Source: Diplonema papillatum
Taxonomy: Eukaryota; Euglenozoa; Diplonemea; Diplonemida; Diplonemidae
Assembly (NCBI GenBank): GCA_030068145.1
Contig: JAPJBO010000817.1
Span: 39,313-103,312 of the forward strand
Length of the DNA stretch: 64,000 bases
Direction: 5' to 3'
Positions 9,601 through 60,588 of this stretch are shown here, one piece after another. The stretch's first letter is position 1. Each line of letters starts with the position of its first letter. Under the pieces are notes generated by a model. The model did not search any database. It worked only from the letters and a program-made list of their open reading frames with translations, and was not told the origin of the DNA. The position numbers and the translations under genes are program-made.

Positions 9601-11800
9601 TGTGGAAGGAACAAGTAGGCGCCATATACCGACAGACAATACGTTATTGTTGGGAGAACGTATGTCAAGTACAGACATCGGAGTGTTGTCGTGCTGCAAC
9701 CCCACGCCTTCCCAGAAACGTGCCGTAACAAGTTCATTCTCTTGGACATGATATTGACGACTCGTTCAGCATGCGGGTTGAACGAGAGCTCATCGTCAAT
9801 TACCAGGCCGAGGAACTTCGTTTCTTTAACCCAGTCGATGCGGTGTGCGACTACCAGCTGAACAGCACCGTCTTTTCTCCTCGCCTGGACCATTTTGGCG
9901 TCTTCAACGGTGGGATGGTCAACGCCGTCGAGTTTCAGAATGTGCTTCTTGTGATGCTGCGCGTATTCAGGGGTATTCGCCCAGAAAGAACAGGTTTCGC
10001 TCGTAATCCACGCAAGTAACTGTCGCGCCTGCACCGATATTGTCGACGGTGAAAAGAGGACCAGGGGAGCCTTCACGATCATTCCGTGAGGACGGACGAA
10101 TAGTGCTTTGGTCTTATGGTAAGCAAGGCTCATGTTCACCTTCTCAACCCATTTTTCGACCTCTGAAACAACCACCTGTGCTCTTTCTTTCAGCTCGTCA
10201 ACGCTATCCCCGGTTACGACCACGCCGACATCATCCGCAAACAACGACAGTGTAAGTATCGGCTGACCATCTGTCGTATTGCCCATGCTCGTACCGAGGT
10301 CGGCAAGCAGCTCCCCCAACTCGTCAATGCAGAATAGGAACAATATTGGACCTAGCACGGTCCCTTGAGGGACTCCCCGTGCTAGAGGGACCTGCTTTCC
10401 AGTCACGCCGTCCACCTTATACGCTGCTTTTCTGTCTCTCAGGAAGGCTTGCACCCAGAGCAGAAAACATGGGGGGAGCCCGCGCTGCTCCATGACCATT
10501 AGCAAACGATCGTGATCGACTGTATCAAACGCATTCGCAAGATCGAATGAGAGAAGGCAGGAGAAACGCTGATTACGACGGGCATTATCGAGCGCGGAGA
10601 CGATGCTACAGACTTGCTCCTCAGTTCCCCTCCCTCTACGGAAGCCACCCTGCTTGTCACAAAATGGTAGGACCGATGGGATATCAGGACTTTCAGCTAA
10701 GAATACCAGACGATTCTTCACCATCACCTCCATCAGCTTCGCCACCACACTTGTGAGGGAGATGGGCCTGTATCCTTCTGGGAGGCTGTGGTCCTTGCCG
10801 GGTTTAGGAACCGGGACGACGTGTGCTTCGCGCCAATTGCTCGGAACGAATGCGTGCTTCCAGGACATGTTGAACAGTTCTAGGAGCAGCTCCTTCGTAG
10901 GTTCTCCCACATGGGATAGGACTTCAGAACAGATCCCGTCAGGGTCGAGGGACGTTGTATGTCGTAGCTCACCGATCGCTCGGTTCAGCTCAGCCATTGA
11001 GTACAGGTCGACGGACGCATCAGGCACGGCGGATGGACCACTGCGCGGCTCCCAGCAGGGTGGGGCTGATTCTCCAGCGTTACGGATCTCCCGCTTACAC
11101 AGCCTTTCAAGGTGATCGCCAAAGATGTCAGCCTTTCCTTCCGCTTCAACGCAGAAGGTCCCGTCCACTTTAATTGGAGGGACCGCGTGGTGATTGGATC
11201 GGCCGTCGATCTTCCGGACCTGTCGATATAGGAGGCCAATGTCCGTGCATCGGTTAATTCTCGTCATGATGGCGTTCCAGTAACTAGCCTTCGCACCAGT
11301 CGCCTCCTCAGAAAAAGTGCACTTCGCGGCTTCGTATGCATGGCGTTTGGTGACATCTTCGGGATCATCTCGGACTTCCTTATGTGCAGCTGCCTTCAGC
11401 TTTTCCAAGCGGCCGAGTTCGGACGTCCACCACGCCTTGTGTGGGCGATTCGACTTCGCCACGGGAACATGCTTTTTGATGCTGCTACGAAGGAGTGAGG
11501 TAATCCGTTCAGCGAACTTGGCGGGGGTTGCTGGTTGGTGCCTGATGAGGTGCCCGCTACGTTCGTCCAGGTACCCCGACAGCTTCTTCCAGTCAGCTTT
11601 CTTCCACGAATAACGTTTTGGGCCACGGGATTTTGCCTGGCGATAACCTCTAGGCATTTTGAAGACAAGCGGCAGGTGGTCCGACTCCCAAGACGAGAGC
11701 ACTCCCCAGTCCCAGACATTTCCCGGCGTCATGGATGAGATGACTACGTCAGGGGAAGAGAAACGAGCATTAGCACGGTATTCCATGGCCAAAATTCGCT
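6607..11800 (-). mobile_element. 5'-truncated non-LTR retrotransposon (LINE) with poly(A) tail
   Basis: The element is read on the minus strand. Its 3' end is marked by a T-run at 6607-6628 on the plus strand, that is, a poly(A) tail. About 1.1 kb of 3' untranslated sequence (6629-7727) precedes the pol frame. The 5' end lies near 11800, where only the last part of the endonuclease is left and a stop codon sits four codons upstream of the first usable start. 5' truncation is typical of LINE insertion. I could not fix a target-site duplication. There is no counterpart at the matching place in the right-hand copy. Confidence 0.85.
7728..11792 (-). CDS. LINE pol: endonuclease C-terminus, reverse transcriptase, RNase H, zinc knuckle
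   Basis: The uninterrupted frame is 1354 residues. Residues ~35-45 hold SDHLPLVF, the final motif of an APE-type endonuclease, so the front of that domain is missing. The reverse transcriptase (~300-620) shows YRPISL, QGGFRRGRGTEEQ, SFDLANAFDTVDHDR, GVPQGTVLGPILF, the active site FADD (~518-521), and FLGLVIDD. The RNase H domain (~875-1060) keeps all four acidic positions (AWADGS, RAETVA, LSDSQSL, GNEVADKLAKDA) with the GHCGLRGN box. A CPVCGRR...H...C knuckle follows at ~1172-1190. This order is that of the I/ingi/R1-like group. All RT and RNase H catalytic residues look intact, so the copy is young, though it cannot be autonomous without a complete endonuclease. The start is uncertain because the frame is open from the truncation point (first codon TTG, then ATG two codons later). 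Confidence 0.93.
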   Translation of the reverse strand: MAMEYRANARFSSPDVVISSMTPGNVWDWGVLSSWESDHLPLVFKMPRGYRQAKSRGPKRYSWKKADWKKLSGYLDERSGHLIRHQPATPAKFAERITSLLRSSIKKHVPVAKSNRPHKAWWTSELGRLEKLKAAAHKEVRDDPEDVTKRHAYEAAKCTFSEEATGAKASYWNAIMTRINRCTDIGLLYRQVRKIDGRSNHHAVPPIKVDGTFCVEAEGKADIFGDHLERLCKREIRNAGESAPPCWEPRSGPSAVPDASVDLYSMAELNRAIGELRHTTSLDPDGICSEVLSHVGEPTKELLLELFNMSWKHAFVPSNWREAHVVPVPKPGKDHSLPEGYRPISLTSVVAKLMEVMVKNRLVFLAESPDIPSVLPFCDKQGGFRRGRGTEEQVCSIVSALDNARRNQRFSCLLSFDLANAFDTVDHDRLLMVMEQRGLPPCFLLWVQAFLRDRKAAYKVDGVTGKQVPLARGVPQGTVLGPILFLFCIDELGELLADLGTSMGNTTDGQPILTLSLFADDVGVVVTGDSVDELKERAQVVVSEVEKWVEKVNMSLAYHKTKALFVRPHGMIVKAPLVLFSPSTISVQARQLLAWITSETCSFWANTPEYAQHHKKHILKLDGVDHPTVEDAKMVQARRKDGAVQLVVAHRIDWVKETKFLGLVIDDELSFNPHAERVVNIMSKRMNLLRHVSGKAWGCSTTTLRCLYLTYVLPTITYCLSVYGAYLFLPQGGRRGFTSPYLEKFERLHRRSLTYVLGCRKGISDLVATQEAGIPPIKVYIDHRLGSLYEKLKLRSLLWDRTLNAPATPLARYVDLERRAGTRDPPRETFVFNPFAPWSLRPPVAIHPSLPEGKTPAEKRSIVEKRLRALPSPDCTAWADGSVMKQSLPSPPPIGDPGFDRRQLRWQVFYNDVTTWGGAATYLEFGPSVRLTDAHGFEVRFEHGCPTISSTCPAGKFPSSTRAETVAMVETLRVLLAVLPPTDVPLEILILSDSQSLLRDLCNGPHAQKQPLMIEIWLALNELNSRGCRITIQFVYGHCGLRGNEVADKLAKDAACRHYRAMTGPSFGVTRVHPPIAAVDASTRYKSRLTREYNESMAIMAYGRAAMAGNETPFAGIVNGRVIKRRKDLTNRAEKESRQLRTGHHPLVMTMYSAEYHTMHRCDRRQLFLPCPVCGRRSRSPLEHLFVCCTDLVTQRLRDSMWAVMADKSGRTEGLKHVGTKDKLWLLLFQHPEIALRYLQEVGAIPRYRILLNDDDLLWSNAAAPAVSSDMLSAWSSQTVLSQLSSPVVPLLSSQLVPGPDISSNGSQLAGPQHESDRSPTPDLDSCTGTLRFEDALDMQAAVSTTSSSPGEWA

Positions 11801-11983
11801 TTTAGCGCCTGCTCAGTTGGAATTCTTATCGGAAAGTGCGAGATCGTCATTTACTCGTTTCCAGTGTCCCAGGACGGTATCTGCTCTCTCAGAGCTTATT
11901 TCGCCCGGTTTGCGAAGAACTCAAAATGAGTCCAAAAATTCTCACTCGGTAGTGAACACCCACACAGGGGTTTGTGGGTCGGT
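11801..11983. other. Flank between LINE and SINE-like repeat
   Basis: No open frame or repeat is recognised here. Confidence 0.3.
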
Positions 11984-25470: not shown

Positions 25471-25658
25471 AACCGACACGGGTTGCCACGACGAAAGCGC
25501 GGCAAAGTGTGAACGTCACCGCATGGACAGCGGCCCTACAGGATTCTGTGCTCGTCTTTGCCGACATGTGCGAGAGGCTGCCACGTATAAACTGATGGAT
25601 GGCTATCCATCGGTCATCATTTTTCCTTTTAGGTAAGTCAAACATAAAGCAACTGAAA

Positions 25659-26416
25659 ATGGCGACCGACTGGCCGCTGGTTCTTCTTGTGCTCGGCATG
25701 TGCGTTGTGACGACTTCGGCCCAGTGCCAGGAATGCTTTGACAACTGCGGGCTTCTGTTCGAAGGCTGGTCCCTGACGGCCAAGATCTCGGTTTACGACA
25801 AATTTCTGAAGTTTTTCGCTTACGACTGCGCTTTCTTAGAGGATCTTAACGCAAAGTATCCGGATCTCAGGATAACGATCGTGTCGGATGCTGACCTGGG
25901 CAACGTGGACTACGACACAAAATTCGGTGTCGTGGGTGACATGATGGACGCCGAGAACCCTATTCTCGAAATAGTGGACATGGACAATCCGTACGTCCAG
26001 CCTTTGGCCGACAAGTTGGAAACTTTGCCGGAGGATGTCTACGATGGAATTCGTGAAAGGTTCATGATTCGCGACGACGACGGCAATGTGAAAGCCATAT
26101 CGTGGCTAGGAGCCGTGATGAACCTCTACTACCGCGAAGACCTCTTCAAAATGCACAATATTACTTACACAATTGAATCGTGGGAAGCTTGGACTGAGTC
26201 ACTCAAGCTGCTCCAAGAGAAAGAGCAGGAACGCCGCAACGACACAAGTTGGAGAGCACTGATCTTCATTGCCGGCAATAACGATCTCAGCATGTACACC
26301 TCGTATTTGCTTTCTTTTCTGGACGGTCATGACGGCGGCACTGTGGTATCAGAGGACGGCGAACCGACGATCAACAATGCCAACGCGATTAAAACGATGG
26401 AGATGATGGTCGACTG
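25659..26416 (+). CDS. Receptor 1, exon 1: signal peptide and N-lobe of a solute-binding-like ectodomain
   Basis: The start ATGGCGACCGACTGG gives a signal peptide (PLVLLVLGMCVV, cut near TSAQC). An in-frame Met 20 codons upstream exists, but the copy at 60744 keeps only this one in an equivalent setting. Residues 25-252 resemble extracellular solute-binding proteins of family 1 (sugar-binding type): a VVSDADLGNVDYDTKFGVVGDM-like strand region, LPEDVYDGIRE, NLYYREDLF followed by the SWEAWTESLKLLQ helix, and GGTVVSEDGEPTINN before the hinge. Reading past 26416 gives a premature stop at 26460, and both gene copies keep GTATGC at this point, so the exon ends after TG of a Trp codon. The likely role is to bind a ligand outside the cell. 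Confidence 0.8.
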
Positions 26417-26813
26417 GTATGCACACAGATTTTCGAGTGGTGCAAGCATTACGTGCTTTTAGTGAGCTTCGAGCACTCCCCCCTAGGCCTAAGGTGGCTT
26501 GAAACGTAAAGCGTATCACCCGTCGATGGTCACTTCGGAGAAGCCGACCTCTCCACACGGCCAGAACTGCAACGCCGCCATGGAAGCGTTGCTGTTGCGC
26601 TTGTTGAACAGTAGTCGTGTCAAGTTCCCACCGTCGCGTCCCCGAGTTGACGTTCCTTGCGCTCGAAGCACGCCCAGCCCAGCTCGCTCGGTGCGACGTG
26701 CGCAGGCCGGTTCAGCAGCACCTCCTCTCGAGCGGTCAGGGGCTGGCCGAAGTCGTCCACCGTACTCGGACCACACGATTTTTCAATTCCATATCGCGTA
26801 CACATAACAACAG
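26417..26813 (+). other. Intron 1 of receptor 1 (397 bp)
   Basis: The donor is GTATGC and the acceptor AACAACAG. The joined codon is TG|G (Trp) and the frame continues as KKTIMHPKSW. The homologous intron in receptor 2 has the same donor and acceptor words but is 238 bp and unlike in sequence. Confidence 0.85.
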
Positions 26814-29219: not shown

Positions 29220-29335
29220 CATCGATAAACAAACGTCGCGTTTGCACGTTTGTCAAACGTTTGCGTTTGATGAATGTTGTCAAACGTATGTTTGCAAACG
29301 GTTGACAACAACGCTGCCCTAGGCATAGGTGGCAG
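29220..29335. repeat. CAAACGTTTG palindrome cluster ending in CCTAGGCATA
   Basis: CAAACGT, GTTTGCACGTTTG, CAAACGTTTGCGTTTG and GTTTGCAAACGG follow one another. The cluster runs into TTGACAACAACGCTGCCCTA and GGCATAGG, the terminal word also found at 35234, 36241, 38756, 39371 and 39582. Confidence 0.65.
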
Positions 29336-29460
29336 GTCGCGACTCTCCCCCAGACTCGCCCGAGGGCCCTCGAGCCCCCAAACTCGCTATTTGACTGCCC
29401 ACTCACCCCAGACTCAATTCGTCCTTCGACTCGCCAGACTCGCCCTCCGTGGGCCAAGGT
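29336..29460. repeat. AGACTCGCC repeat cluster
   Basis: CAGACTCGCC, GACTCTCCCCC, AGACTCGCC and similar words recur about eight times, adjoining the CCTAGGCATA word at 29319. This fits the end of another element of the same style. Confidence 0.5.
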
Positions 29461-30147
29461 GATGACGAGGGTCTGCCCCCACACAACACATGTCGGGAGC
29501 TTCCAGGTCATCGTCGGCGTCGTTGTCGTCGTCGTCGGCGGAAAAGTCTCACCACCATGCATCCGCAGAAACAGTCGGTTGACGAACTGCAGATCCATGG
29601 AGGCGCAGCGTCACTTCTCCACGGCATTCGTCATTGAGACGACGCTATCGACCCGTGTCACGCTCAGCGCCGGCGTGAGCGGGAAACTTCTCTGCTGTCT
29701 TTCCACCCCAACACGTGTTTCTCTACCAAAATGGAGGGTTTTCATTGGCAGCGGGGTATTTCCCCAGATTTTGTGTGATTGACCCCCCCCCCCCGCACCG
29801 GAGTGAGTCGGAAAAGGCACACAAAACTGACCTGTGTCCAAGACGGGGGTTTGGGCAGAACTACTGGCGAAGTACAATGCTGTGCATGTGCCCCCACGCG
29901 GGGGATGAGTCCCCTTCATCGTTACCCAAGTCGAACGGGAACCAACGAGACGACGGTAGTCACGGATTGCAAAAAACATCGAGTCACGATCGGGGGGAGT
30001 GATAGGTCTGAGTGTCAATGGCAAAGCATTTGGCGCCAGAATCAAAAAACCACTTCATGCATGTCGAGGCTGCCCCATCCCGGCTCCGAAGCATACCAAT
30101 CGCCTTGCAGGAAGCTTTTCACCGATTAATAGGTGGCAACCGAGCGA
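29461..30147. other. Stretch without recognisable genes
   Basis: A GTCGTC-rich patch at 29510-29545 and a C-run at 29784-29796 are the only notable features. Confidence 0.3.
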
Positions 30148-30475
30148 ACGGAACAGAAACGGGGGTTAACCCCCGAAGGAAGTCGGACGTGATAGCCCCC
30201 CTGCAGAAACGCGAAACATTAAACCAGCCACGGCTTGAAAACACGGAAAACTTCACGAGTTTATTTCGAAAGAAGTACCCGATTCTCCGACCCCGAAACG
30301 CCAGACCATGGGTCGAACGAAATAAGCGGACCCCGAACGCCACCCCCAATAATAGGTGTTCCTCCGGTGGCCCGCGCAGCGGCGTTTTTTTTTTTTTTGG
30401 AGGGGGGTTTGGGGGGTACTAAAGCTCATGTGTGAGCCTAGTTCGTCCTTCCCATGATAATGTCTTTTCCTGCCC
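30148..30475. repeat. Dispersed repeat, copy 2 (also at 115-480)
   Basis: Colinear with 115-480, with about 85% identity by eye and the same T-run and GGGGTTT tract. Confidence 0.75.
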
Positions 30476-30566
30476 TTTACCCCTGGCAACCAAGGGGGGT
30501 ATGGGGGGCTTCGCCCCGGTACGGTACTTTCCGTTCACTGTTCCGTTGGGCAACACTGGATTCTGA

Positions 30567-30808
30567 GGTCGGAAAACCTATTTGGACAGTTTCCCGAGGT
30601 GGGACAATTTTCTAATGCTGGGTTTCTAGTTCGGAAAACCTATTTAGACAATTTCCCGAGGTGGGACAATTTTCTAATGCTGGGTTTCGAGATCGGAAAA
30701 CCTATTTAGACAATTTCCCGAGGTGTGACAATTTTCTAATGCTGGGTTTCGAGGTCGGAAACCCTATTTGGACAAGTTTCCGAGGTGGGACAATTTTCTA
30801 ATGCTGGC
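30567..30808. repeat. Tandem repeat, 62-bp unit, four copies
   Basis: Units begin at 30567, 30629, 30691 and 30753 with the word TCGGAAAACCTATTT and carry GAGGTGGGACAATTTTCTAA. Unit length is constant. Confidence 0.92.
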
Positions 30809-31375
30809 CACTGACAATGCAGAAGAGGACAACAGAATCAAAAAGCCCCACTCTGCACGGCCGCCGATACAAGTAAACATGAGAACGTGGGTTGGAAGCA
30901 TCTGGTATCAGAAACATGTGACGACTTTCTGCATCATTAGCTTGCGGTTACCTATTTGCTCGTGTGTCAGATCGCCGACGGAAGAAAGCGGTGAGCTTCA
31001 GCGAATGCTTTGCACAAACGAGACCACGACGACACACAAGAAGGGGCCGAGCCAAGTCGAAGAACAGCCCAGGAAGGGCCCTGAAGAGTCAGAGCCCGCC
31101 AGAAGACGGACGAAGAGAAGTGCCCGCTGGTAGATCAAAAGAAGGTGATCCCGCCCTCCGAAAGGAGAGCCAAGATTTGGCCGGAAACGGACCGGACGGA
31201 CCCACAGAAGGACCCGCAAAGTGGTATTCTATAGGACCCCTCAGCATGAGGAGCCTTCCGGCGTTTCTTTTCAAAGAAACGGAAACGTTTCCGTTTCCGT
31301 TTCCATATTTCGAAAAAAACTAAAAGAAACGGCGTTGCCATCCAACTTAGCCGGTTCTTCAACTAAAGGGCTAGA

Positions 31376-32970
31376 GCACCACGTACTTGTCATGCGTATG
31401 ACAAGTACGTTGTACTTGTCATATGACAAGTACAATGACAAGTACAATCCATGACAAGTAGGTACTTGTCATATGACAAGTACATACTTGTCATATGACA
31501 AGTACCTACTTGTCATATGACAAGTTTTGTGAAGGAATTACTCTAGTCTCGCATACAATTGGCTAAGAAAAGTATGGTATATAACCCAATACTCGCAAAA
31601 AGTATTGATTCAAGCGACAACTGACCGATCAAGCTCTGTGACAGAAGAAACAAAGACGGAAAGCTCTCCCAGTCCCTGCACCTAGGTCCCAAAGGGGTTT
31701 GTGCGAGATCTGCGGTGCAAATGGAAGAAAGGAATTGCGTGTCTACAGGCAAGCTTTTATCAAGGGCTAGTTCACCCGAGGATCCCATAAAGATAGTGGC
31801 ACCACGAAACGAGGAAAGAACGGAAGATGTGTTTCCGTTCCCTTCGAGAACAAAAGGTTGGAGGCACAGAGGACAGGTTTTCTTATCAGCTTCTTTGGAT
31901 GCACATACAGTAAGTGTTGCCTAAAGCCAAGTGTCCCGACATGCTTATTGCAGAACGGGCAGTTCTGCTTGACTCGCGTGTATGGAGGCCGATGGTAGGC
32001 GTCATATTGTGCATACAAACCCCTGATGCTGGAAAAGCCAGTCTTTCGGCACATACAATAAAAGACTGCTTCCTCGGTACTGTCCTCTGCTTCAGCAAAC
32101 ACGCCACGGTGTTTCCCTGTTTCCCTACAAACACACGCCTTCAGAATCGCCCCCTCGTCTTGCGGGCTACCAAAATACTTCTGGCCCCACCTGTCTTTTT
32201 GCCGCTGTGCTCACTAAAGCCCACGTTGCGAAGTCGAGTCCAACTTTTGGGTGGCCTGGTCGTTAGCACGAGCAATACACTGTGTATTGCGTCGTTCGTC
32301 AGAACTTCTGGAAGGAGAAATTTCAGTTGAAAATCAACATGTTTGGTCTGGAGTTCGAAGGATAGCATGTCGCGTCGAATGTTTGTCGGGAAGTGTGGGA
32401 TGCCCATCGCTTCCCATGTCGCGGAATTCTTGTTCTCGTTTTTGTCTTGTCCAGGTGTGCGGGTTTGCGCTTATGGTGAGGGGCGTGTGGTTGTTGCTTA
32501 TCTTGGCAATGGTGATGTCTGCAAGCAGGGTTTGGTTGGCCGGACACGGCAGTTGGTCTGTCTGTGTCCAATTCCTTTCTTCCATTTCGCACCGCAGAAC
32601 ATAGCCATCTCGCGCAAACTCCTTTGGGACCTAGGTGCAGGGACTGGGAGAGCTTTCCGTCTTTGTTTCTTCTGTCACAGAGCTTGATCCGTCAGTTGTC
32701 GCTCGAATTAATACCGTTTGCGAGTATTGGGTTGTATACCATACTTTTCTCAGCCAATTGTATGCGAGAGTAGAGTAATTCCTTCACAAAACTTGTCATA
32801 TGACGAGTAGGTACTTGTCATATGACAAGTACCTACTTGTCATATGACAAGTAGATACTTGTCATAGGACAAGTATGTACTTGTCATACGACAAGTACAT
32901 GCTTGTCATAGTACTTGTCATAATATGACAAGTACATGTACTTGTCATACGTATGACAAGTACGTGGTGC
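31376..32970. mobile_element. 1.6-kb element with ~390-bp inverted ends and CTTGTCATATGACAAG arrays
   Basis: The left end GCACCACGTACTTGTCATGC is mirrored at 32951-32970. Inverted identity continues through arrays of TACTTGTCATATGACAAGTA (31384-31526 and 32790-32965) and then ~200 bases of unique sequence (31545-31735 against 32570-32775). The single-copy middle (31740-32570) encodes zinc-finger frames on the minus strand. Confidence 0.9.
31767..32134 (-). pseudogene. C2H2 zinc-finger protein fragment inside the 1.6-kb element
   Basis: The minus strand reads FYCMCRKTGFSSIRGLYAQY..H and then CPFCNKHVGTLGFRQHLLYV followed by H. The second is a good C-x2-C-x12-H-x4-H finger and the first a worn one. 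A second frame overlaps (31886-32134), and upstream frames at 32141-32592 are broken, so this is probably the remnant of a longer element protein. A similar finger ends the frame at 55525-55863. Confidence 0.5.
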
Positions 32971-33047
32971 AGAAGCAGGGCATTAGCTTCCCATTCCAAA
33001 TTCCGTCAGCTGACGGAATTTGGAAATCCGGGCGACTCAAAAAATAA

Positions 33048-33959
33048 TGGGAAAAGTGCCTTAGGGGACTAGTCCCAATGTGAAATGTGCCCTTAGGGGA
33101 CTAGTCCCTATTTTGCATTACAATTCCTGGTAAGAATTTGCAAAAAAGTTGCTAAGTGCATTTCCCAGTACTTCCCAATGAAAATGTGCCCTTAGGGGAC
33201 TAGTCCCCTAAGGGCAAACAAATTCATTGGACTTTTTGCCAGGGAAGTGTACTTAGCAAATTTTTAGCAAATTTTCGGAAATTTTCAGATTTTTCGGATT
33301 TTTCGGATTTTGGCCATTTTTGCCGATTTTTCCAGATTTTCCAGATTTTGACCATTTTTGCCGATTTTTCCAGATTTTTCCAGATTTTGGCAGATTTTGG
33401 CCATTTTTGCCGATTTTTCCAGATTTTGGTAGATCTGGGCCATTTTGGCCATTTTTGCCGATTTTTCCAGATTCTGGCAGATTTTGGCCATTTTTGCCGA
33501 TTTTTCCAGATTTTGGCAGATCTGGGCCATTTTTGGCCATTTTTGCCGATTTTTCCAGATTTTCCAGATTTTGACCATTTTTGGCCATTTTTGCCGATTT
33601 TTCCAGATTTTGGCCATTTTGCAGATTTTGGCCACTGTTGCCGATTTTCCAGATTTTGGCCATTTTTGCCCGATTTTTCCACATTTTGGCCATTTTTGGC
33701 CTTTTTGCCGATTTTTCCAGATTATAAACTGGACAATACAGCAAACTCGGCCAAAATGGCCAAATATGGAAAAATCGGCAAAAATGGTCAAAATCTGCCA
33801 AAATCTGCAAAAAGCTGGAAAAATGAAAATTTCCAAAATTTGCTCAAAATCTGCGAAGCGCATTTCCCTGACAAAAGTCAAGGTAACAATTTCCAAGTGG
33901 GACTAGTCCCCTAAGGGCACATTTCACATTGGGACTAGTCCCCTAAGGCACCTTACCCA
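33048..33959. mobile_element. 0.9-kb fold-back element with GGGGACTAGTCCCC ends
   Basis: TIRs of about 60 bases start TGGGAAAAGTGCCTTAGGGG on the left and, complemented, TGGGTAAGGTGCCTTAGGGG on the right. Each holds two ACTAGTCCC palindromes around AATGTGAAATGTGCCC. The flanks give AAAATAA on both sides (33041-33047, 33960-33966). Sub-terminal sequence also pairs (TTGCCAGGGAAGTG against CATTTCCCTGACAAA). Confidence 0.88.
33265..33830. repeat. Minisatellite (TTTTTCCAGATTTTGGCCAT-like) inside the fold-back element
   Basis: About twenty units of TTTTGCCGATTTTTCCAGA plus TTTTGGCAGATTTTGGCCA cover 33265-33720. After 33735 the complement of the same units occurs, so the array is itself folded. Three overlapping frames on each strand give repetitive peptides and should not be called genes. 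Confidence 0.9.
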
Positions 33960-34619
33960 AAAATAATAAAAAAAAACAGTGCAAAAAACAACCTTCGATG
34001 AAAAAGGTCGTGGGGGTCCGGTGGAGGCGTGGGTTAGGCCGCTGTGGCTGGCGATCAAGGGCTGGGCTGGCGGTCAGGGGCTGGGCATCGGTGGGTCGCC
34101 GCTGGGCACGGTGGGCTGGCTGGCAGAAGTGGGGCTGCCGCGGGAGCTGAGCCGAGTGAGAGAGTCGAGGCTCAGAAGCAGCCCGGAGTTCTTGACAGAT
34201 TCTTTCCGAGTTGACACAAGTGCCTTGTTCCATGTGATCTCCGGTCTGCATCTACTCGTGCCAATGATTTACCAGCACACAGTATCTGAGTGGTGGATGA
34301 ATTTGAAATGGGCTGTTGGCTTCAGGAATGCGCACCCGGGGGGAGCGAGGCGAGTCACACAGGTGGCAAACAGTGCCACCAGTACGTTGGTCGTATGTTT
34401 AACGCGACAAACGGACTGAGAAGTGCAAACTTTTTCCACCTGAATGTACTGTACCGTTTGCCGGGGGGCGGAGCCCCTCTTCTGGAAGGTTCGGGTGGCC
34501 TAAACAAAGGCTTCTCGGTTTCAGAGCGGGAGAAGCAAATCGGCTATTGAGACGGAAGTAGGAAAACTGAGGCCAAATGAAGTTAATAGCCTGCCCAGAA
34601 GCCCCCGTCAGAAAGAATA

Positions 34620-34960
34620 AAGAGTTCCTTCACAAAATAGCTCTTCACAAAAAAAATACAATTTCAATTTCACAAGATATTACTTGATTAATTACGGACT
34701 GGAGTGTAGTTTCCGTTGTAAAAAGATTTTGCCCACAATTTCCCGTGAAGAAATTTCTGCCGGTAGTTTTCGCCCACAAGAAAAACTCCACCAGGTTTTC
34801 GTGAGAGAAATTTCCACCAATAGTTTCCGTTGTAGAAAGTTTCCACCAACAATTTCCCACGAAAGAAATTTCTGCAAGTCACGAGAAAGTTTCCATCAGG
34901 TTTCTGTCGTGAGAGAATTTTCCACCAATAGATGCCGCCAGTAGTTTCCGCCGTGGTGCT
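34620..34960. repeat. Degenerate repeat rich in GAAATTTC and TTTCCACCAA
   Basis: Words such as GAGAGAAATTTCCACCAA, TAGTTTCCGTTGTAGAAAG and TTTCCCACGAAAGAAATTTC alternate about seven times. This is another short-motif cluster without a visible TIR. Confidence 0.6.
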
Positions 34961-35078
34961 CACCAGTGGCTTCACTTCACTATCGGGGTTTCCCGGTCTC
35001 TGACACGACTGAGTTTTAAAGTCCTGGTCTTTCAAGATGTAGTGGGCTTCAATGCATTTTACCCTAAAAATGCCTACA

Positions 35079-35229
35079 GGAGCTAGTTATAGAACTAGCT
35101 CGTGCTAGTTATATAACTAGCTCGTGCTAGTTATATAACTAGCTTGTGCTAGGCACAAGTTATCAAATATAACTAGTTATAGAATAACTAGTTATTTTCA
35201 CAAGTTATGTACCTTACTAGTGCGTCGTG
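35079..35229. repeat. Truncated relative of the 24032-24739 element
   Basis: GCTCGTGCTAGTTATATAAC arrays and the right end CTAGTGCGTCGTG match 24600-24739. The left end is missing. Confidence 0.8.
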
Positions 35230-35233
35230 TAGC

Positions 35234-36247
35234 CCTAGGCATACATCCGATCCGACTCGTACGCGAGAATGATTCTCGCATTCTCGCATGAAATTCTCGC
35301 ATATTCTCGCATGCGAGAATGATACGAGTGAAATACGAGAATGTGTAAACCACTCAAGAACCATGTATTTGACCCGTATTCGAGGCTCCGACAGGAATAC
35401 CAAGTGAAGATAGCAAAATAACGAAATAAGGCTATGCCAACTGCAGCTTTGTAGCTGGCATTGTGTCCTGCTTTCAAGACAAGGACACCTCAACACACTA
35501 TGTTGTCAACAACAACTCTGGTTGCTCCATGGTATTGCTTTCAATGCTTGAATAATGGTCGAAACCATGCTTCACAACAAGTGCTCCGTCCGCCACCGTG
35601 CCTGCAACTTCTCCGCTGCGGCTTCTTGTGTTTTCTTCTACGATTTCCTCTGCCACAGCTTGTTTCGTGAAGCTGGCGGGTACCATTCAGTTGCCGCTGA
35701 CTTAGGAGGCACCGGCTTTTTGAATATTGGCCTCGGGGCCGTTTGCAGGTGCATTATTAGGTTGCAGGCTCTCTGGATGGCAACGGTCCGCAGGTACGTC
35801 CGCGAGCCCTTGGCATCTAGCGAGCCCAGCGACAGCGAGTCAAGGAGACCTAATCCTCAAATAACGCTAAAAGCACAAGCAAATTCGGTTCCCGAGTTCA
35901 TAAACAGCTTGAAAGCCTGCATCCACGAACACACGAAACGAACTGTGGCAGTGAAGGCAGAGGAGGAAAGGAAAGTTCACTACACAGAGAAAGCAGCAGC
36001 TTGAGAAGTTCGGAGGCCCAGTGGCGGCAAAATATGCCGCGGAAGCCTCGGAGATGACCTAAAACGTTGATTCCTGCCGGTTTCTCATATGTGCAAGCAT
36101 GCTGTACTGTGAGTTATCTCATTCTCGCATATTCTCGCACGTGCGAGAATATGCGAGAATCATGCGAGAATTTTGCGAGAATCGGGGCCGCGACCCCCCA
36201 ACACGAGAATATGCGAGAATACGAGTCGTATCGGATGTATGCCTAGG
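35234..36247. mobile_element. 1.0-kb TIR element with TTCTCGCATGCGAGAA arrays
   Basis: Ends are CCTAGGCATACATCCGAT and the inverse ATCGGATGTATGCCTAGG, then CGACTCGTA. Sub-terminal arrays of TCTCGCAT/ATGCGAGA lie at 35260-35345 and 36115-36225. A plus-strand frame (35555-36004) encodes 149 residues with a Ser/Glu-rich and basic middle. The same peptide is partly readable in the inverted copy at 37943-38762. No transposase motif was found. Confidence 0.82.
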
Positions 36248-36373
36248 GGGGGGGGTAGGTAAGTGGTCAATCTATCAGCAGAGGGTGGATCGGCTCGAGC
36301 ACGTCTGAAAATCTTCCGATAAAACGTGTTTTCAACAAAACTTCGCATTTCTTTCTGACCGCAAGCCTTGCGG

Positions 36374-37346
36374 TCATGTTCGAAGCAGTCAGCGCACTTG
36401 CGCTTTCAAACTTTCACGCAGCTACGCCAAAATACCTCAATGCATCACCACAGAATCCGAAGGTCTCGCGCAGCAGTCTAAGGTTGCCAGACAACAGTTG
36501 CAAGTGGGCGAAGCGGCAATCAATCAAGCACGCGGCTCGCTCCTTGCTGTCCGCTTGGTGCTCGCTGAAGGGAAGGATATGGCGGTGAAATCGTTCGAAA
36601 TTCTGCTGGCTGCCATCGAACGCAGTATCGGGAACGGGATTCTGCATTCCTTCAACACCACCGCAGCGGAGGAGCTCATAGTCACCTGGGGTGTGGCTGG
36701 CAATCCGATGAGCATTAGGACCACACAAGAGAGAGCCGCGCATGCTGCGCTTGGGATCGAACACCTCATGTCTGCAGAGAAGATGTCAGTAGCGATGACA
36801 GCCATCTCCGCAAAGTTTAGTGCAGGCAACGTTGGGAGTAAGAGAACCCGTGGCTTCGCTGTGTTTGGAGCGCCGATCCGGTTGCTTCCGACCATGTCAT
36901 CGGCCAGCAAATGCATCAGCCAGACGATGTCAGCCACGACGATCCTGGTGAACAACGAAATTTCGAAGATACAAGGGTTCAGCTTCACTCCGGTCGACTC
37001 CGTCATAAGCAACGATGGCACATCTACCGTCTTCTACGAGCTCTCCGGACAGACTCAGGTCAACGAGCAAGAATGGATGTACCAACTGCAGGAGATGGAG
37101 CTGAAAGCCACCCGCACGTTCGAAATTTATTTGAAGGAGTTATTATCGAAGACGAAGGCAGACATGTCAGACGTATCGGAACTTATCACCGTGCCATCCG
37201 ATATGGTTTCCGAAGGAACCCCTGTCATGCTAAAAATCCGGCGCTTGCTGGATCCGTCGCGGATGTTCAACGACATTCCGATTTGCAGTTTGATCGAAAG
37301 ACGAAGCGTTGTCCTTCTCGCCGCCGCAGAACAAGACGCTGTCTGA
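36374..37346 (+). pseudogene. Class III nucleotide cyclase homology exon, copy b (probable last domain of receptor 1)
   Basis: This is the second cyclase-homology exon. VMFEAVSALALSNFH opens the fold in one frame. From about 36440 homology continues in another frame (ESEGLAQQSKVARQQLQVGE onward) to the stop at 37344-37346. HSFNTTAAEELIVTWG, GNVGSKRTRGFAVFGAPIR and EQEWMYQL are present, and catalytic Asp, Asn and Arg are lost as in copy a. Compared with copy a it has an extra 21 bases (7 codons) near 36418. Most differences before the break are silent in the first frame and most after it are silent in the second, so both stretches evolved as coding and the break lies between. The exon sits 0.1 kb right of one 1.0-kb TIR element and 0.6 kb left of an inverted relative. 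It may be a pseudo-cyclase domain in use or a dying gene. Confidence 0.72.
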
Positions 37347-37942
37347 TTTTTGAAGTACCTTGCCGTCAACATGCAACTTCCCAGAATTGCATCCCCACCA
37401 GCCCCCAGGGACTTTGTTAGGCATTCGCCCGCGCGTATTGTTGGGACTAGCTTTTGGGCCGACCTGATTTCAAGAACAAAAATCGGCGGCCCTCCAACGT
37501 TACCCTACCTATCTGCAGTACGGGTCCAGCCGATTCCTGTTTTCTCCCAACCCACATGAAATCTTCCGTGCAAAAAAACTTTCTGGAAGTGCTCGAGGGT
37601 ATGGTGAGATGAGAGGCATCGGCTCACTCTGTCAAAGGACAATACCACTATCGCAACAACATGCGTCCAAATCCCAAAGGCGGTAATGTGGTGTAGCCTG
37701 CACGAAACACATGCAAGTTTGAGGTTAGTGGCGGTAAATTATTTTGTCATTGTTTTCTTCTCTCCTCAAATCTTCCAGGGAGCTTTGTCCATTTTACCAT
37801 GCCATGAAGCCTCCGCCCGTCCAGCCCCTTGCGGCAACCGCACTGTGGGATAGGATAGGTTAGAGTGAGGGGATGGGGTCTGGTTGATTGAACAGGGCCT
37901 CTAGAAGTTAGTGCGGTCGCTCCCCCCCCTGCGGGGACCCCT
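37347..37942. other. Stretch without recognisable genes
   Basis: Nothing with a clear motif is seen here. Confidence 0.3.
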
Positions 37943-38762
37943 GCGAGAATGAGATAACTCACAGTACGGGATGCTTGAAAACATGAGAAACCGCCAGGAC
38001 TCGACGTTTTAGGTCGTCTCCGAGGCTTCCGCGGCGCATTTTGCCGCCACTGGGCCTCCCAACTTCTCCAGCTACTGCTTCCTCTGTGTAGTGAACTTTC
38101 CTTTCCTCCTCTGTCTTCACTGCCACAGTTCGTTCGTCTGTTCGTGGATGCAGCTGTTTGTGAACTCGGGAACCGAATTTGCTTGTGCGTTTAACGTTAT
38201 TTGTGGATTAGGTCTCCTTGACTCGCTGTCGCTGGGCTCGCTGGATTCCAAGGGCTCGTGGATGTACCTGCGAGCCGTAGACATCCAGAGAGCCTGCAAC
38301 CTACTCGCAAAGGCGGCCCCGAGGTCAATTATTCAAAAAGCCGGTGCCTCCAAAGAAAAAAGTCAGCGGCAACTGAACGTTAGCCGCCAGCTTCACGAAA
38401 CGAGCTGTGGCAGAGGAAATCGTAGAAGAAAAACAAGAAGCTGCAGCTGGAGAAGTTGCAGGCACAGTGGCGGGCGGAGCACTTGTTGTTGAAAGCAATA
38501 CCATGGAGCAACCAGAGTTGTTGTCGGCGACGTTTTGTGTCCTGAAAGCAAGACACAGTGCCAGCTGCAAAGTAGCCTTGTTTCGTTATTTTGCTATATT
38601 CCTGTCGCAGCCTCGAATACGGGTCAAATACATGGGTTTTCAGTGGTTTCCACATTCTCGCATTTCACTCGTATCATTCTCGCATGCGAGAATATGCGAG
38701 AATTTCATGCGAGAATGCGAGAATCATTGTCGCATTCGAGTCGGATCGGATGTATGCCTAGG
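37943..38762. mobile_element. Inverted, left-truncated relative of the 35234-36247 element
   Basis: The sequence is the complement of 35220-36125. The right end GGATGTATGCCTAGG and the TTCTCGCATGCGAGAA arrays (38655-38740) are present. The other TIR is missing and the copy starts inside the array at GCGAGAATGAGATAACTCAC. Confidence 0.82.
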
Positions 38763-39370
38763 GCGGTGTACCGGCCGGATACGTATCCTAGATGGATACG
38801 TGCCCGCAATACTGTCGGGTTAGCCTTACTACAAGGCCTTGCTGCATACCAAGTTCAAACTATGACTCCACTACTTAACTGTTCAACCTTTGTCTCAGTC
38901 TCAGACTCTGACTCGTGACCAGCACCCCGGTTCAAACAGCTCTGTTTCGCGGCATGCGGACCTATTACGTACAAGAATGAGAGACATAAGCAGCATTTGC
39001 CATCAACAACTGCACACCAAGCGACTAAATTTCACAAGATGTACTGAACAAGTTTCTGTTTCCCACCGTCCGTGACCACGGTGACAGCCTCTTACATCGG
39101 ATCTCCTGCCTTGCGGTTAGCTGCTGGCTTCGGGGCTGGCTTCGGGGCTGGCTTTCCGGCTGGCTTCGCCGCCGGCTTGGCGGCGGACATTTGCGCTGCC
39201 TTTACGTTTGCACCTGGGCTTAAGTGTATTTTGATGACCTCCTGCCGCACGTAGTACTCACTACCCTTCCTGTCTGTACACCACGTATCCAACACGTATC
39301 CTTGCATTTTCGGAAGAAATAGATACGGATACGTATCCGTATCCTGGAAACGGATACGTATCCTAGCATC
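38763..39370. mobile_element. TIR-like element with GGATACGTATCC arrays
   Basis: GGCCGGATACGTATCCTAG near the left and GGATACGTATCCTAG near the right face each other between two CTAGGC-type words (38756 and 39370). The inside has GGATACGTATCCGTATCC words at 39340-39365 and a minus-strand Ala/Pro/Lys-rich frame (39092-39307) made by GGCTTCGGGGCT repeats. The exact ends are uncertain. Confidence 0.6.
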
Positions 39371-39589
39371 TAGGCATAGTGGTCAAACGATTCGCATTAT
39401 CGCATATTATCGCATTTGGGGGTTCGGCGCCAATTATCGCATTTTCATTCGCGTTATCGCAATCTTAAAACCTGGGTAAATCCAGTAGTATGGACTATCG
39501 CATGTTATCGCACGCCGATTATATGCGATAACTTTGTGCGACAATGCGATAATTATTATCGCATGAGAATCGTTTGACCACTATGCCTA
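39371..39589. mobile_element. 219-bp MITE with TTATCGCAT arrays
   Basis: Perfect TIRs TAGGCATAGTGGTCAAACGA then TTC, and the exact complement on the right (39567-39589). Sub-terminal TTATCGCAT, GCGATAA and ATTATCGCAT words fill the rest. It directly follows the GGATACGTATCC element. Confidence 0.92.
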
Positions 39590-40711
39590 GAGGGGGTCAA
39601 ATGTCCTTTAAATGTGTCCCAATGGCACAAAAAATTAAGAACTATATTGGCGACGTTTCTGAGCTGTAAAATTGCTCGGACCCAATCTTCGGCAGAGAAA
39701 ACCACGTTTTTTGACCGGTTGGACGCATCAGGCGGTGACGATGACCGCATTTTGAGTGTCGAAATTTCGGTATCCACGTTTGGTACCTCGAGCTGAGTCG
39801 TGGGCAAGACATGGGTTTTCAAGAAACTAAAACGAGCGAAGGACGGCACTGGTTTGCTTGCGAGGCGACTCCCAGCTTCCTTGGACCAAATCAAGTCAAA
39901 ATAAAACGAGCTTGGCCTTTCCGGCTGCACCCGAGAAGAGCCGATGGAAGTGGCCATTGACCTGAATGACCGCAGAAGGTGGTCGAGGAGGCCAAGACAA
40001 AGCAGCTGATCTGGTACCATAACTTACTCGAGCAACCACCGGAGTGGACACCCACGAAGCCTTCAGGGACTTCTTCAATGTGGATGTCTATGAAGAAGCC
40101 ATCGGGTTCTACAAGGCAGGCTAATGGCATGTCTTCCTTAAGATGGTTTTAGTCATGTGCGAGCTATCGGCATGCATTGGGTACACCCGCAACGCCCGAA
40201 CGGGGGATGCCTGACAACACCATCAAAGAGATGAACCGCCTGATAGAATTTGGGTGCCAAGGAGGCCAAGTATGTCTTACAGTACACCCTGTGGTGATTG
40301 ACCTACTGCAACACTGCGCTGCCCAGTTGGAACCAGACACAGCAGAGCACAGCGCGAGAGGGATCATACATGTCAAAAGCCCTGGCGTAATGCTGCCAGT
40401 TGACCACACGGTTTCACACGGAGGCTGTGCAAACGTAACAATGTACTGTTTATAAACATCTACGGTTACTTTTTTGGGGGTAAGGGCGCTTGCCCAACGT
40501 TTACTAGCTACACTTTGTGACCAAAATGCCTGTGAGCGGCAGTGTATACTTTGTATCAACCGTGTCCAAGTTGTTCACCTTACCCCCTAATCCAAACCGT
40601 GGTACCAAACGTGGATACCAGTTTTTTCCGCTCGAAAAATGACCTTAAGCACCCCAAATACGCTCAGCCTGGTCCAACATTGTGGTTTAACCTGCGGAAG
40701 AGCGGAGGGAA
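39590..40711. mobile_element. Possible element around a perfect 19-bp inverted repeat
   Basis: GGTATCCACGTTTGGTACC at 39769-39787 is exactly inverted at 40601-40619, with weak pairing outside it (CATTTTGAGTGTCGAAA against TTTTTCGAGCGGAAA). The middle has short frames on both strands without known motifs. Element status is uncertain. Confidence 0.35.
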
Positions 40712-41010
40712 GAATGCCGCACGCAACGCCAGACGCTCTCCTCTACGAGGAGCCCTCAGACGCGGAGGGAGGAAAAACCCCAGTTCGCATGCCCGCCTCC
40801 CCCGCAGGGGAGCCCTCCTAGCGCGGAGGAAATGCCGTACGCTACGCTAAAACGCGCTCCTCTGCTGGGAGCCCTCAAAGACGCGGAGGGAATAGTAGGC
40901 CCGCTTACCCCGCTGGGAGTCGGGAAAGAAGACCGTACGCAATGCTGGCGCAAAAAACCGCTAACACGCGCTCTCCTCAGCCGAGCTGGGAGGGAGGGAG
41001 GGACCTTTTA
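40712..41010. repeat. Degenerate tandem repeat, ~110-bp unit
   Basis: Three units carry GAGCCCTC and GACGCGGAGGGA with ATGCCGCACGCAACGC-like starts. Confidence 0.6.
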
Positions 41011-41164
41011 AGAAGGCCGCGAGAGTCGGCTGAGCCGGGAGCTACCGGAGAAGGTGTGTATGTGCTTAGGTATCGTAAGAATACTTCCCAGCCTGAAAAC
41101 ACCGTAAACATACCTTGTCAAAGTTTACCGATTGGGACAGCATTTGACCCCCCCTACCCCCTGT

Positions 41165-41830
41165 GTTGGCAGGTAAACGCGTTTCCATCCGGTTTCCAAA
41201 ACATGGAAACGGAAACGGAAACGGCTCCTTGGTTTTGCAGGCTACCCACAAACCGCCAACACCACCAGGGAATACTACACGGTGACCAGCCCCAGAAGTT
41301 GGAGATGAAGAGGGTGCCCGAGTCACACCCGAGTAGCGAGTGTGACACCCGTTTTTTAGTACTAACAATCTTGTGGGTTGCCCTTCAATGTATTGTGCAG
41401 GCTAAAAAGACGTAGGCAGCGTGTTTGGGTGGTTGATCAGAATTCCTTACCTGAATACACACAGGGTAAATACAAGTGGGAAAACGATCAACCGGCACGC
41501 ACAAACAAAACGAAGCGCCTGTCTTTTTTAACTCCAGCTTTAACTCCAGCTTCTGAGGCTGCTCACATCCCCGACATGGTGTGTCAACTTGCAGCCAAAA
41601 CCGAAAAGACTGTGCGCATACGAACCCGGGGAGACAGCACCGTTTGCACAGATAAATCTGTTTTGCTGGCTCGTTGGGAAATACCCCTTAAAAAATTCCC
41701 CCCCCGCCCATCCGAGGTGTGGTCACCTTACACACTGCAATCTGCAGCAGCCGTTTCCCAAATAAGGAAACGCCGGTTCCTTGAAAGTATGGAAACGGAA
41801 ACGAAAACGGGAAACGTTTCCGTTTACTTG
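41165..41830. repeat. Region bounded by GGAAACGGAAAC clusters
   Basis: GCGTTTCCATCCGGTTTCC and ATGGAAACGGAAACGGAAAC lie at 41178-41224. GGAAACGCCGGTTCC and ATGGAAACGGAAACG then AAACGTTTCCGTTTAC lie at 41766-41826. A similar GGAAACGTTTCCGTTTCCG cluster is at 31280. It looks like an element of the same style as its neighbours, without clean TIRs. Confidence 0.45.
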
Positions 41831-41849
41831 CTTATCATAGCCGGGTCCC

Positions 41850-43790
41850 CCCCCACCCCCCCCCTTCCGCCCGCTGGTGAATAAGAACAGTGCCACCTCC
41901 CCGGAGCCCGGAGGCCTTCACGGCTTGACGCCTCTCGACAAGGCAGAACGAGTGAAAGTGTCAAAAATGCCGTCAAAAGACGAGCGAATCGAGAGACCCC
42001 GACTCTGCAAATGCTGGTACCTTTCATGCGCAGACGGAGAAAGGAAGACGCAACAACTGTGCGCCTGAAGGCGACGATCGAGAGGCGAAAGCACAACACG
42101 TGCGAAGAGGTGTGAAACGCGTGCTGCGGGTGCGGGAGTCAGAAAACACTGTGCGGGCCGAATTGTGACTCGTCTTCCAACCGAGCGCACCCAAACCTCG
42201 ACGTAAGCGCTAAGCCGCCGAATTTCACCAGCCTTTGATTCCTTGAAACGCTATTAGTAGCAATGGATACTGGACCTTGGAGTCGGCGAAGAATTGACCC
42301 CCTCGGCACCCCTCTTACCCCTGCTCTGACTAGACAGTTAGAGGGGCACGAGGGCCGGACGCCCGCCGTTTTGTATTAACCAGCCCTCGTGTCCCCTTTT
42401 TTGGAAAAGGGTTCTTTACATTGTACACACCTTTCCCTGTAGCAAGGGAGTCAATCAAACTTATCAGGCTCCCAGCCCGATACACCCAATCGTACCCACC
42501 GTTTTGAACCGAGCAAAAGAGGCACAGAGTAAAGCTCTTGATAAGAAAACTGACGCACGTCGGCGGAAGCACAAAAGAGTCGCATAAATTCCCCGCCCCG
42601 CCCTCACATAACCCCATCCCCAACCCCTGCGGACCCTTCCCTCTTCCCCTCAGTACTTTCAGTAGCCACTCCCGATCTCCCGCTGGCACCGCATAGATGA
42701 CGCGTCGGCCGGCGCTGCGAAAGGCGCAGTGAATCGCGGCCCTGCTCGTTCACTCTCATCACCTGCAATAACTCGATCCGCTGCAGCCCACGGATGGTCG
42801 AAATATTTCTTTCTTGGGCCCCGACTTGCCACCCCCTTGCATAGAAGTGGGCATCCTACGTATACCAACCGTAAGACGCTTTCCTCCGGCATACCATAGG
42901 CAAGGTAGCCAACAAGAATTGCACCTCTGTATACACTGTTTCCGCAAAATGCTACATAGGGACGGGCAAGGGTGCTTTGGATCAAGAAGCCGAGAACAAC
43001 TTCGCCTGATACCTCATGGTACTTTTGTTCAGTCAATTCTGTGTCCGTAAATGAGGAAACCTATCCCTAGTTCTCGAGCTAACAAAGTCAACGAACAGGC
43101 TACTGCCAACGGCTGCACGAGATGCTGAGTAACAGTGCGATGGCTCGTTTCTCAGATTGTAAAAACAGCGAACATTTTGTGCAGTCGTCGCGGGATGGCA
43201 GCATCCCGCAGTTCAGGACCTGGGTCGGCGAGTGGTTTCCCCCCAACCTACCCAGTCACTCACAAGTAACCAGCACGACCTGCGAGAAGACTTTTTTCGT
43301 TCTTGATTGCGTGTTATGCGACCGCAATTTTGCTTTCTTTTTTTACTCATGGGACTGCCGTGTTGTACCTTTTTGCGAAAAGCGAAGCGTTTCCAATCCG
43401 TGATAGGGCGTCCGACCACAATGTATTTCGAAGATCGTGGACCGATCAATACCACCGATCGATGTGCATTGGGGTGCGCTTTTACACAGCTATCACAACC
43501 ACAAGCCCCAAACCCAACGCACCCGTGTGTCCCCTCTAGGCATCTTGTGGTCAATGGCCCAGCCATTCACCATCAAATTCGTCAATGGCTGTACTTTTTC
43601 ACGTGATACAATGCTGCATCACGTGCAGAAGTAAGGCGCGAACATGCATCCCTGCACTCGTCCGTCTTGTTGCAGTACGTACGTGGAGGTCTCCCTGCCG
43701 GAGATTTCTTCTGGACCGGTCGCAAGTCTTATCACACACACGCAGCAATAAGGATTTCCGTACTTCCTTGTGAAAATGGGTCGATGCCAA
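41850..43790. other. Stretch without recognisable genes
   Basis: A minus-strand frame at 42659-43036 (125 codons) and others of similar size have no motif I recognise. C-runs at 41848-41868. Confidence 0.3.
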
Positions 43791-59366: not shown

Positions 59367-60588
59367 CTACAGGGGGGGGCTAAATACAACGAGCGCCCGT
59401 TGTATTCAAAGCGTCAAGCTCAAAATGCAGGTTCGCGGCAGAACGTGGTCTTCGAATACAACTGTCTTGGAATACAACTGTTTTTCCATGCTAATCAACC
59501 GTGGGTTTCCGTGCCCCCGTACAGAGGGAGCAGATTTCGAGCAGCATTTCGTACTTCGCAGTCGGTCTGATTCAGACCGACTCGGACCGGTGTTTTCGTA
59601 CTTCTTTCCGAGTCAGAAAAAAGTCAGACGGCCGTCTGACTCGGACCCCCGCCCCGCTCGCCGTCCAGGCCGGCTTTGTCGCGGCAACTTGGCCCGCAAT
59701 GGGTGCGTCGAACAGGCTGGACTCGCAGCCGGCGCCCAGGCTGACCCCGCCACCGGAAGAGGCCGACGAGGCCCACCACGCAGCTGCCGAGGCCGCTGCC
59801 AGGCGGACCTCCCCTCCGCGAGCGGCAGGCCGTCACTGGATCCGGAAGTAGCAGCGGCGGGTCAGCCACAGGGTCGACTCGAGCGTGAATCTCACCCTGG
59901 AACCCTTTACAAAGTTTCAGGACTCCGAGTCCGACTCCAGTTCAGAATCGGACAAGCCCGAATCGGAAGTGGACTCGTCGGGACCTCCTCCCACGAAGTC
60001 TGATGACGAGTGACGGAGGGCCGGGCGGACCGCGGCTGGACAGGGATGGAAGGCATTGGACCGGACCCCGGTGGGCGGATCGGGGGCGAGTGCGCCGCAA
60101 CCGGACCAGTTCCTGGTCCGGTTGCGAAATGGAAGCAGCTGCGGAAACAGAAACCCAGCCCGACTGGGATGCTCGGGGGCGCCCCACAACCAAGGTAGGC
60201 CGGCATCGCGCTCGCCGGTCGACACGCCGGCAACCGTTTGCCGCAGACAACCAGGCGCCTCCGAGGACCCCTCCATCCAGGCTCACCTGGTTCGTGCCGA
60301 CGGAGGCCAGCTTTCCGTCGGAGGACGCCGGAGAGGTTTGGACGAACTTCCTCCGGCCCAGGCCCTCGGCTTCCAGTCCGAAGAGGAAATGCCGACTCAC
60401 AGCGAGCCCTAATCAATCTTAGAGGCTTCACTGAAACGAGAATAGTGCAGAACTCCAGTGAAACAGCACTATTCCAAGACAGTAGTATTCAACGGAACAA
60501 GGAGAAAAAACTAGGGAAAAAAAACAGTAGTTGTATTTAGCGGCGGTAGTTGTATTCCAAGAAAGTTGTATTTAACCCCCCCCTGTAG
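59367..60588. mobile_element. 1.2-kb TIR element with AATACAAC arrays, just upstream of receptor 2
   Basis: The ends are CTACAGGGGGGGGCTAAATA then CAAC, with the complement CTACAGGGGGGGGTTAAATA then CAAC. Flanks give CGCTG and CGCGG, an imperfect 5-base duplication. At 25520-25545 the left copy runs straight through (GCATGGACAGCGGCCCTACA). GAATACAACTG and GTTGTATT words lie at both ends, and CAGACGGCCGTCTGAC and CCGAGTC words inside. The GC-rich middle (59640-60420) is open on both strands without known motifs. Confidence 0.88.

Follow-up and report, generated by a model that had tools for sequence, protein, structure and literature searches.

A CCTAGG landing site probably common to several transposon families with private palindrome arrays, hAT families among them, in Diplonema papillatum

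The window analysed here, a stretch of 64,000 nucleotides of the Diplonema papillatum genome (assembly GCA_030068145.1, contig JAPJBO010000817.1, positions 39,313 to 103,312, forward strand), contains elements with inverted ends and arrays of short palindromes, at whose borders the word CTAGGCATA recurs. The word is present six times in the window (at 29319, 35235 and 39370, and on the reverse strand at 36238, 38753 and 39582) against an expectation of 0.18, and six or more were reached in none of 100 shuffles; in the genome searched (271 Mb in 2910 contigs) it occurs 1365 times and the reversed word 722 times. A sequence-only reading of the window had located these words correctly and had taken them for the common end of several element families, recognised by one transposase. 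Two families, F1 and F2, carry the word in the window, and they stand among ends of other families, of which X and Y are hAT families described below:

29220..29317, + strand: right end of an X-like element of the hAT type, which carries a CAAACG array (8 half-sites) and ends CAACGCTGC; terminal bases as in X (GCAGCGTTGTT.. inward)
29318..29323: CCTAGG landing site common to the X-like element and F7
29324..29450, + strand: start of F7, with the end CATAGGTG and CGAGTC-type repeats; far end not found
31245..31351, - strand: end of the Y hAT family (GCTAAGTTGGATGG.., GGAAACGTTTCC array; 1 mismatch in 19 bases), flanked by CGGTTC and not by CCTAGG
35085..35233, + strand: end of an element with a CTAGTTAT array (8 half-sites), GTGTAGC lying against the CCTAGG of F1
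35234..35239: CCTAGG, left copy of the F1 duplication
35240..36241, + strand: F1 element, 1002 bp, with ends CATACATCCGAT and a TTCTCGCAT array
36242..36247: CCTAGG, right copy of the F1 duplication
37942..38756, - strand: another F1 copy, in inverted orientation and with its low-coordinate part truncated (inverted-repeat arms I2, I3, I4, I8)
38757..38762: CCTAGG next to the end that the truncated F1 copy retains
38763..39363: region of a GGATACG-array element, borders not established; 10 half-sites in two counted stretches
39369..39374: TCTAGG, left flank hexamer of F2, two bases different from the right one
39375..39585, + strand: F2 element, a miniature inverted-repeat transposable element of 211 bp, with ends CATAGTGGTCAAACGATTC and a TTATCGCA array
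39586..39591: CCTAGA, right flank hexamer of F2

These features alter several borders of the sequence-only reading. The word described as separating two clusters at 29319 belongs to a single CCTAGG at 29318, common to the element ending CAACGCTGC and the element beginning CATAGGTG. The element end placed at 38762 does have CCTAGG at the intact end of an F1 copy, but that copy ends at 38756 and lacks its other end. The GGATACGTATCC element, described as bounded by CTAGG words, has CCTAGG at its left (38757), whereas the nearest such word at its right is the TCTAGG at 39369 that flanks F2.

Six-base and eight-base duplications at the element borders

F1 and F2 are repeated elements with inverted ends, as had been proposed from the window: exact end patterns of 20-22 bases are found 252 times genome-wide for F1 and 436 times for F2, and the reversed patterns are never found. 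F4 (L041; L numbers denote genomic loci), a third family whose ends are similar, has 102 end patterns and likewise none reversed. Flanks were compared for 32 distinct F2 copies (both ends were located in 34 of 37 loci tried) and for 11 distinct F1 pairs out of 12; the F2 loci, like the F3 loci below, are the best matches among those listed and are thus biased towards intact copies. The hexamers directly outside CATA..TATG are equal in 19 of the 32 F2 copies, compared with a mean of 11.33 after partner shuffling and with no shuffle of 2000 reaching 19, and in 10 of the 11 F1 pairs, a number matched in 39 of 2000 shuffles. Over 8 bp the flanks are equal in 0/32 F2 copies and 0/11 F1 pairs, so that the length that fits F1 and F2 is 6 bp and not the 8 bp of hAT transposons. 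Departures from CCTAGG recur on both sides of one and the same copy: CCTAGA (L044, L057), CCTAGC (L054), TCTAGG (L062, L065) and CTTAGG (L067) in F2, and CCTAGA around two F1 copies (L103, L141). Because these variants are mirrored as direct repeats on both flanks, CTAGGCATA is mostly landing site: CCTAGG is the 6-bp target-site duplication of F1 and F2, and the word consists of five bases of target, CTAGG, lying outside the element, and four bases, CATA, which alone are element sequence. The mirrored variants contradict CTAGGCATA as a terminal repeat. The word does stand at the border, as had been claimed, but most of it lies beyond the element itself. A 4-bp duplication of CTAG, the first reading of these flanks, was replaced by duplications of 6 bp and 8 bp.

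The longer duplication belongs to X, the one family in which 8 bp was observed. Its 23 copies reduce to 11 distinct flank pairs, of which nine are equal over 8 bp, a number reached in 2 of 2000 shuffles, and a 6-bp duplication considered for X was superseded by these pairs and by the empty sites. Most of the duplications are CCCTAGGG; the departures, CTCTAGTT (L078), CCCTAGCC (L123) and GCTTAGGG (L125), are mirrored over all eight bases. When flanks were joined around a single copy of the duplication and searched for, with 40 of 2098 candidates scored, the matches included 27 places identical to the L123 site with one CCCTAGCC (100% over 98 bases), 13 places at 99% identity to the L125 site with one GCTTAGGG, and two diverged spanning matches at 78% for L119. 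Since the flank pairs are mirrored over eight bases and empty sites exist, X is a canonical 8-bp hAT family with an nnnTAnnn target.

About a dozen types of end adjoin CCTAGG. Beside the F4 end CATACAGTGC and the F7 end CATAGGTG, which also stands next to CCTAGG in L006/L007, they include GCAGTG.. (F3 and the hAT family Z), GCAGCG.. (X and the window cluster at 29220), GCTAAGTTGG and GCTATGTAGG (Y), GCTATGGTGG and GCTGGGCTGG (W-type, a further hAT family) and others met once each; the tips differ by family, being CATA.., CAGNG.. or CTA[A/T]G... One copy of the hexamer is common to two neighbouring elements in L006, L041, L096, L120 and L121, and in the window at 29318 (X-like end and F7) and 35234 (CTAGTTAT element and F1). 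The pattern TATG-CCTAGG-GCWRNG, in which a CATA-type end and a hAT-type end flank a single hexamer, is found 121 times genome-wide and its reversed control not once.

L149 (C218:80580-80745) consists of three tandem 33-bp units, each with an F1-type and an F4-type end and little else, separated by CCTAGG or CCTAGA. Several elements (L010, L014, L021, L023, L030, L033, L038, L043, L146, L147) have CCTAGG at one end and CG followed by a G-run or C-run (or CGG) at the other, a flank of the CG type being present also at window position 31352; such flanks may be left over from processing or repair of the ends. G-runs, or diverging repeats that start with GGGGGTCAA, are frequent neighbours of landing sites (L095, L117, L129, L083, L039 and others), and these repeats may be the ends of another class of element.

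Transposases and palindrome arrays of the hAT families

A fragment inside the F3 element of L006 led to relatives, and the genome contains at least 150 matches to Dimer_Tnp_hAT (150 scored of 851 candidates). One of them, L078, is a whole X element, with CAGCGTT.. ends and GAAAACGTTTTC arrays at both ends, and X is the only family in which a transposase and both borders were seen together in a whole element. Its open frame of 656 codons encodes an intact protein of 632 aa, which matches DUF659 (E 2.8e-15) and Dimer_Tnp_hAT (E 1.9e-9), each over the curated Pfam cut-off, and, in the PDB, chains of the Hermes transposase (E 7.7e-4 to 1.1e-3). The N-terminus has a CCHC-like, BED-type stretch, whose zf-BED match (E 0.2) is under the Pfam cut-off; an autonomous member of the kind foreseen from the window exists, with a candidate finger at its N-terminus beside arrays of its own, so that the forecast largely holds. 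Y is 35% identical to X and has an unbroken frame of 650 aa (14 places with equal score); Z (C316) and W (C254) are more distant relatives with interrupted frames. In the main tblastn pieces X shares about 32-37% identity with Y, Z and W. X and Y show a CxxC..H..C pattern; Z and W, as read, are one cysteine short. The C-terminal dimerisation region of hAT transposases is matched by Pfam in X, to which Y, Z and W are related. In the window, 26561..26773 (- strand) resembles the C-terminal part of the X transposase (tblastn against a small database of selected loci: 34.7% over 75 aa, E 3.5e-5).

Transposons of the hAT type typically have short inverted ends of the CAGNG type. With the 8-bp duplication removed, the ends are CAGCG in X and CAGTG in F3 and Z; the ends of Y (CTAAG, CTATG) and of W (CTATG, CTGGG) differ from this form. 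Many matches to the X protein are partial, 42 of the 70 scored spanning the first 62-77 residues alone. The 22 short X copies examined are all 487 bp long with 0 to 2 differences from the majority sequence; they look like a recent burst and, being near-identical, are uninformative on selection. A peptide consisting of the BED region and kept by selection in F3 was considered and rejected, because an internal inversion splits the frame in some copies: in the F3 subfamily L021-L029 the internal segment is inverted and the transposase-derived frame is divided between the strands. Other classes of hAT transposase, of over 730 aa, were met in L079 and L080 (downstream pieces L073 and L072), with TAGCCACAA-like arrays downstream and, in L080, a weak ZZ-finger match below the cut-off (E 0.024).

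Each family has its own array inside its ends. When half-site motifs were counted family by family, the resulting 12 x 12 table was nearly diagonal; the motifs were picked by eye from each family, and the informative part is the near-empty off-diagonal. Repeated motifs lie inside the ends of X, Y, Z and W, the array motifs of the related hAT families being AAAACGTTTT, GGAAACGTTTCC, GCAAACGTTTGC, GTAAACGTTTAC and GCATACGTATGC; their own half-sites number 4 to 24 per family in the counted stretches, against means of 0.00 to 0.04 in shuffles that preserve single-base composition only. One border word combined with a private repeated palindrome for each family, the pattern first noticed in the window, thus holds for several families.

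Probable re-landing at duplicated borders and competing explanations

The explanation favoured here, and considered probable, is that CCTAGG is a landing site common to several families, that the arrays are private to each, and that several of the families are hAT. Insertion would duplicate the landing site and leave the element bordered by CCTAGG; every border would then be a new landing site, and a further element inserting there would come to share a single copy with its neighbour. Re-landing of this kind at duplicated borders would therefore produce both the chains and the appearance of one common terminal word. The BED-type finger at the N-terminus of each transposase is predicted, by analogy with Hermes, to bind the palindrome array of its own family, so that the array would distinguish the families while the choice of target would be common to all. 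F1, F2 and F4 may be moved by another transposase that cuts the same core with a spacing of 6 bp rather than 8 bp.

Several observations weigh against this explanation. The F2 copy of the window has unequal hexamers, TCTAGG at the left and CCTAGA at the right; several F2 and F3 copies lack the hexamer at one of their ends; and two X copies (L118, L131) are unequal over 8 bp. The F3 flanks (30 loci giving 23 rows, 21 distinct) are equal in 10/21 at 6 bp, compared with 9.74 after shuffling, and in 5/21 at 8 bp, compared with 5.39, and are uninformative because the F3 target hardly varies. For 11 joined-flank sites of the 6-bp group, no empty site was found among the 40 scored of 2098 candidates; in a search with seven of these sites, the L067 site gave one candidate spanning match (C176:139494-139587) at 91% with a length difference of four bases, and every match to the L062 site breaks off no more than about five bases from the hexamer. 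The C1 copy of Y is bordered by CCTAGG at its left (L081) and by CGGGG at its right (L140), the W copy with transposase pieces lacks CCTAGG at both ends examined, and of the Z copy the right end alone was located, its left end not being found. The sub-threshold BED match of X counts on the same side.

The sequence-only reading, in which CTAGGCATA is a terminal inverted repeat, one common transposase serves all families and the arrays are a second address, agrees with the CATA tips that stand beside CCTAGG in F1, F2, F4 and F7. It is very improbable, given that variants of the hexamer are mirrored as direct repeats, that neighbours share one copy, that the hexamer is used by families with very different tips, and that related hAT families have transposases of their own. 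A different possibility is that the transposases are unselective and that CCTAGG, with its surroundings of C-runs and G-runs, marks places where insertions survive or chromatin is open. Many flanks do run on as G-runs or GGGGGTCAA repeats, which suggests a repetitive landing context; nevertheless, rare variants retain a central TA and remain nearly palindromic (CTCTAGTT, GCTTAGGG, CCCTAGCC, AGTAGG), the duplication is placed exactly on the core, and this explanation is judged improbable.

More room is left for the proposal that the CATA-ended group is itself hAT, a lineage in which the cut spacing changed from 8 to 6 bp while target taste and array design were retained; it is judged less probable than not. 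F1 and F2 resemble hAT in their working, with a common target core and a like array design, and they are chained with hAT ends. They are not filed as hAT because of the 6-bp duplication, where hAT is described with 8-bp duplications (PMC3942097), and because no transposase was found for the CATA-ended group in the eight long pairs examined (L141-L148, 1.5 to 4.6 kb), which contain inserted repeats or sequence in which no transposase was recognised. Searches with the X and Y transposases (tblastn) gave no hit below E 0.6 in the long F1 and F2 copies (L141-L147) and none at E 10 in the long F4 copy (L148), which contains a repeat insertion. In six-frame comparisons with Pfam, the F1 interior matched no family above its cut-off, and nothing exceeded the cut-off in L144, L142:100-2700 or L143:290-1900, the stretches of the long copies that the scans covered. 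The ends listed for pairing were 100 of 252 for F1, 100 of 436 for F2 and 100 of 102 for F4, one 2.1-kb F4 pair being left out; autonomous CATA-ended copies may be among the unexamined ends, missing from the assembly, or extinct. F4 was seen as two copies only (L041, L148), and the 6-bp duplication was observed in F1 and F2. The F1 copy L141 is interrupted by a long insertion bearing open frames of 800 and 318 codons, candidates for a reverse transcriptase and a tyrosine recombinase.

The favoured landing-site explanation can be extended to two transposase lineages, with cut spacings of 8 bp and 6 bp, that converged on the palindromic CCTAGG, exploit each other's borders and so build the chains, the families being kept apart only by fast-changing arrays with matching zinc fingers and the CATA-ended lineage being an undescribed group of transposons. 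This extension is rather unlikely.

The logic of these elements, for which the sequence-only reading knew no described superfamily, is that of hAT transposons and is already known: the BED domains of Hermes bind subterminal repeats (PMC10368747), their sites being AAGT or AAGC motifs of which only two pairs form palindromes. X resembles Hermes, as described there, in its DDE-type hAT transposase, putative N-terminal BED-type stretch and many short subterminal repeats, some palindromic; in contrast to Hermes, the Diplonema arrays are dense, near-perfect palindromes that differ by family within a single genome, and the target is nearly invariant. According to PMC3517528, Buster elements including Mar make 8-bp duplications of nnnTAnnn and give rise to short copies through internal deletion. 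The X duplications CCCTAGGG, CCCTAGCC, GCTTAGGG and CTCTAGTT fit this form, and short, internally deleted copies of X exist; unlike the Buster target so described, that of X is much narrower, being CCCTAGGG in most copies, and membership of the Buster clade is not claimed. With IS3EU and GingerRoot, for which PMC10045372 gives 6-bp duplications and termini of TA..TA (occasionally TG..CA in GingerRoot), F1 and F2 share the length of the duplication, but their termini are CATA..TATG and they have no known transposase. Within the literature searched, no report was found of CCTAGG, CTCTAGAG or CTAG as a hAT target. What is unusual is that so many families occur in one genome, that their arrays are so pure and their target so nearly fixed, and that chains result. 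Related hAT families that vary in array motif and keep their target thus form a natural series within a single genome, in which both a recognition code of the BED finger and the separation of array reading from the choice of target can be tested directly, and the presence of a 6-bp group at the common target raises the question of whether the spacing of the cuts can change while the taste for the target stays.

Elsewhere in the window, 39600-42500, scanned in one reading frame, has no Pfam match. An element with ACTTGTCAT arrays (23 half-sites) lies at 31380-32969 without CCTAGG at its borders. An open frame of 1357 codons at 7728-11801 (- strand) matches reverse transcriptase (E 1.5e-31) and RNase H (E 5.3e-7). 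Two similar open frames lie at 25596-26462 and 60576-61712, the former with a match to a bacterial-type extracellular solute-binding domain (E 4.4e-7).

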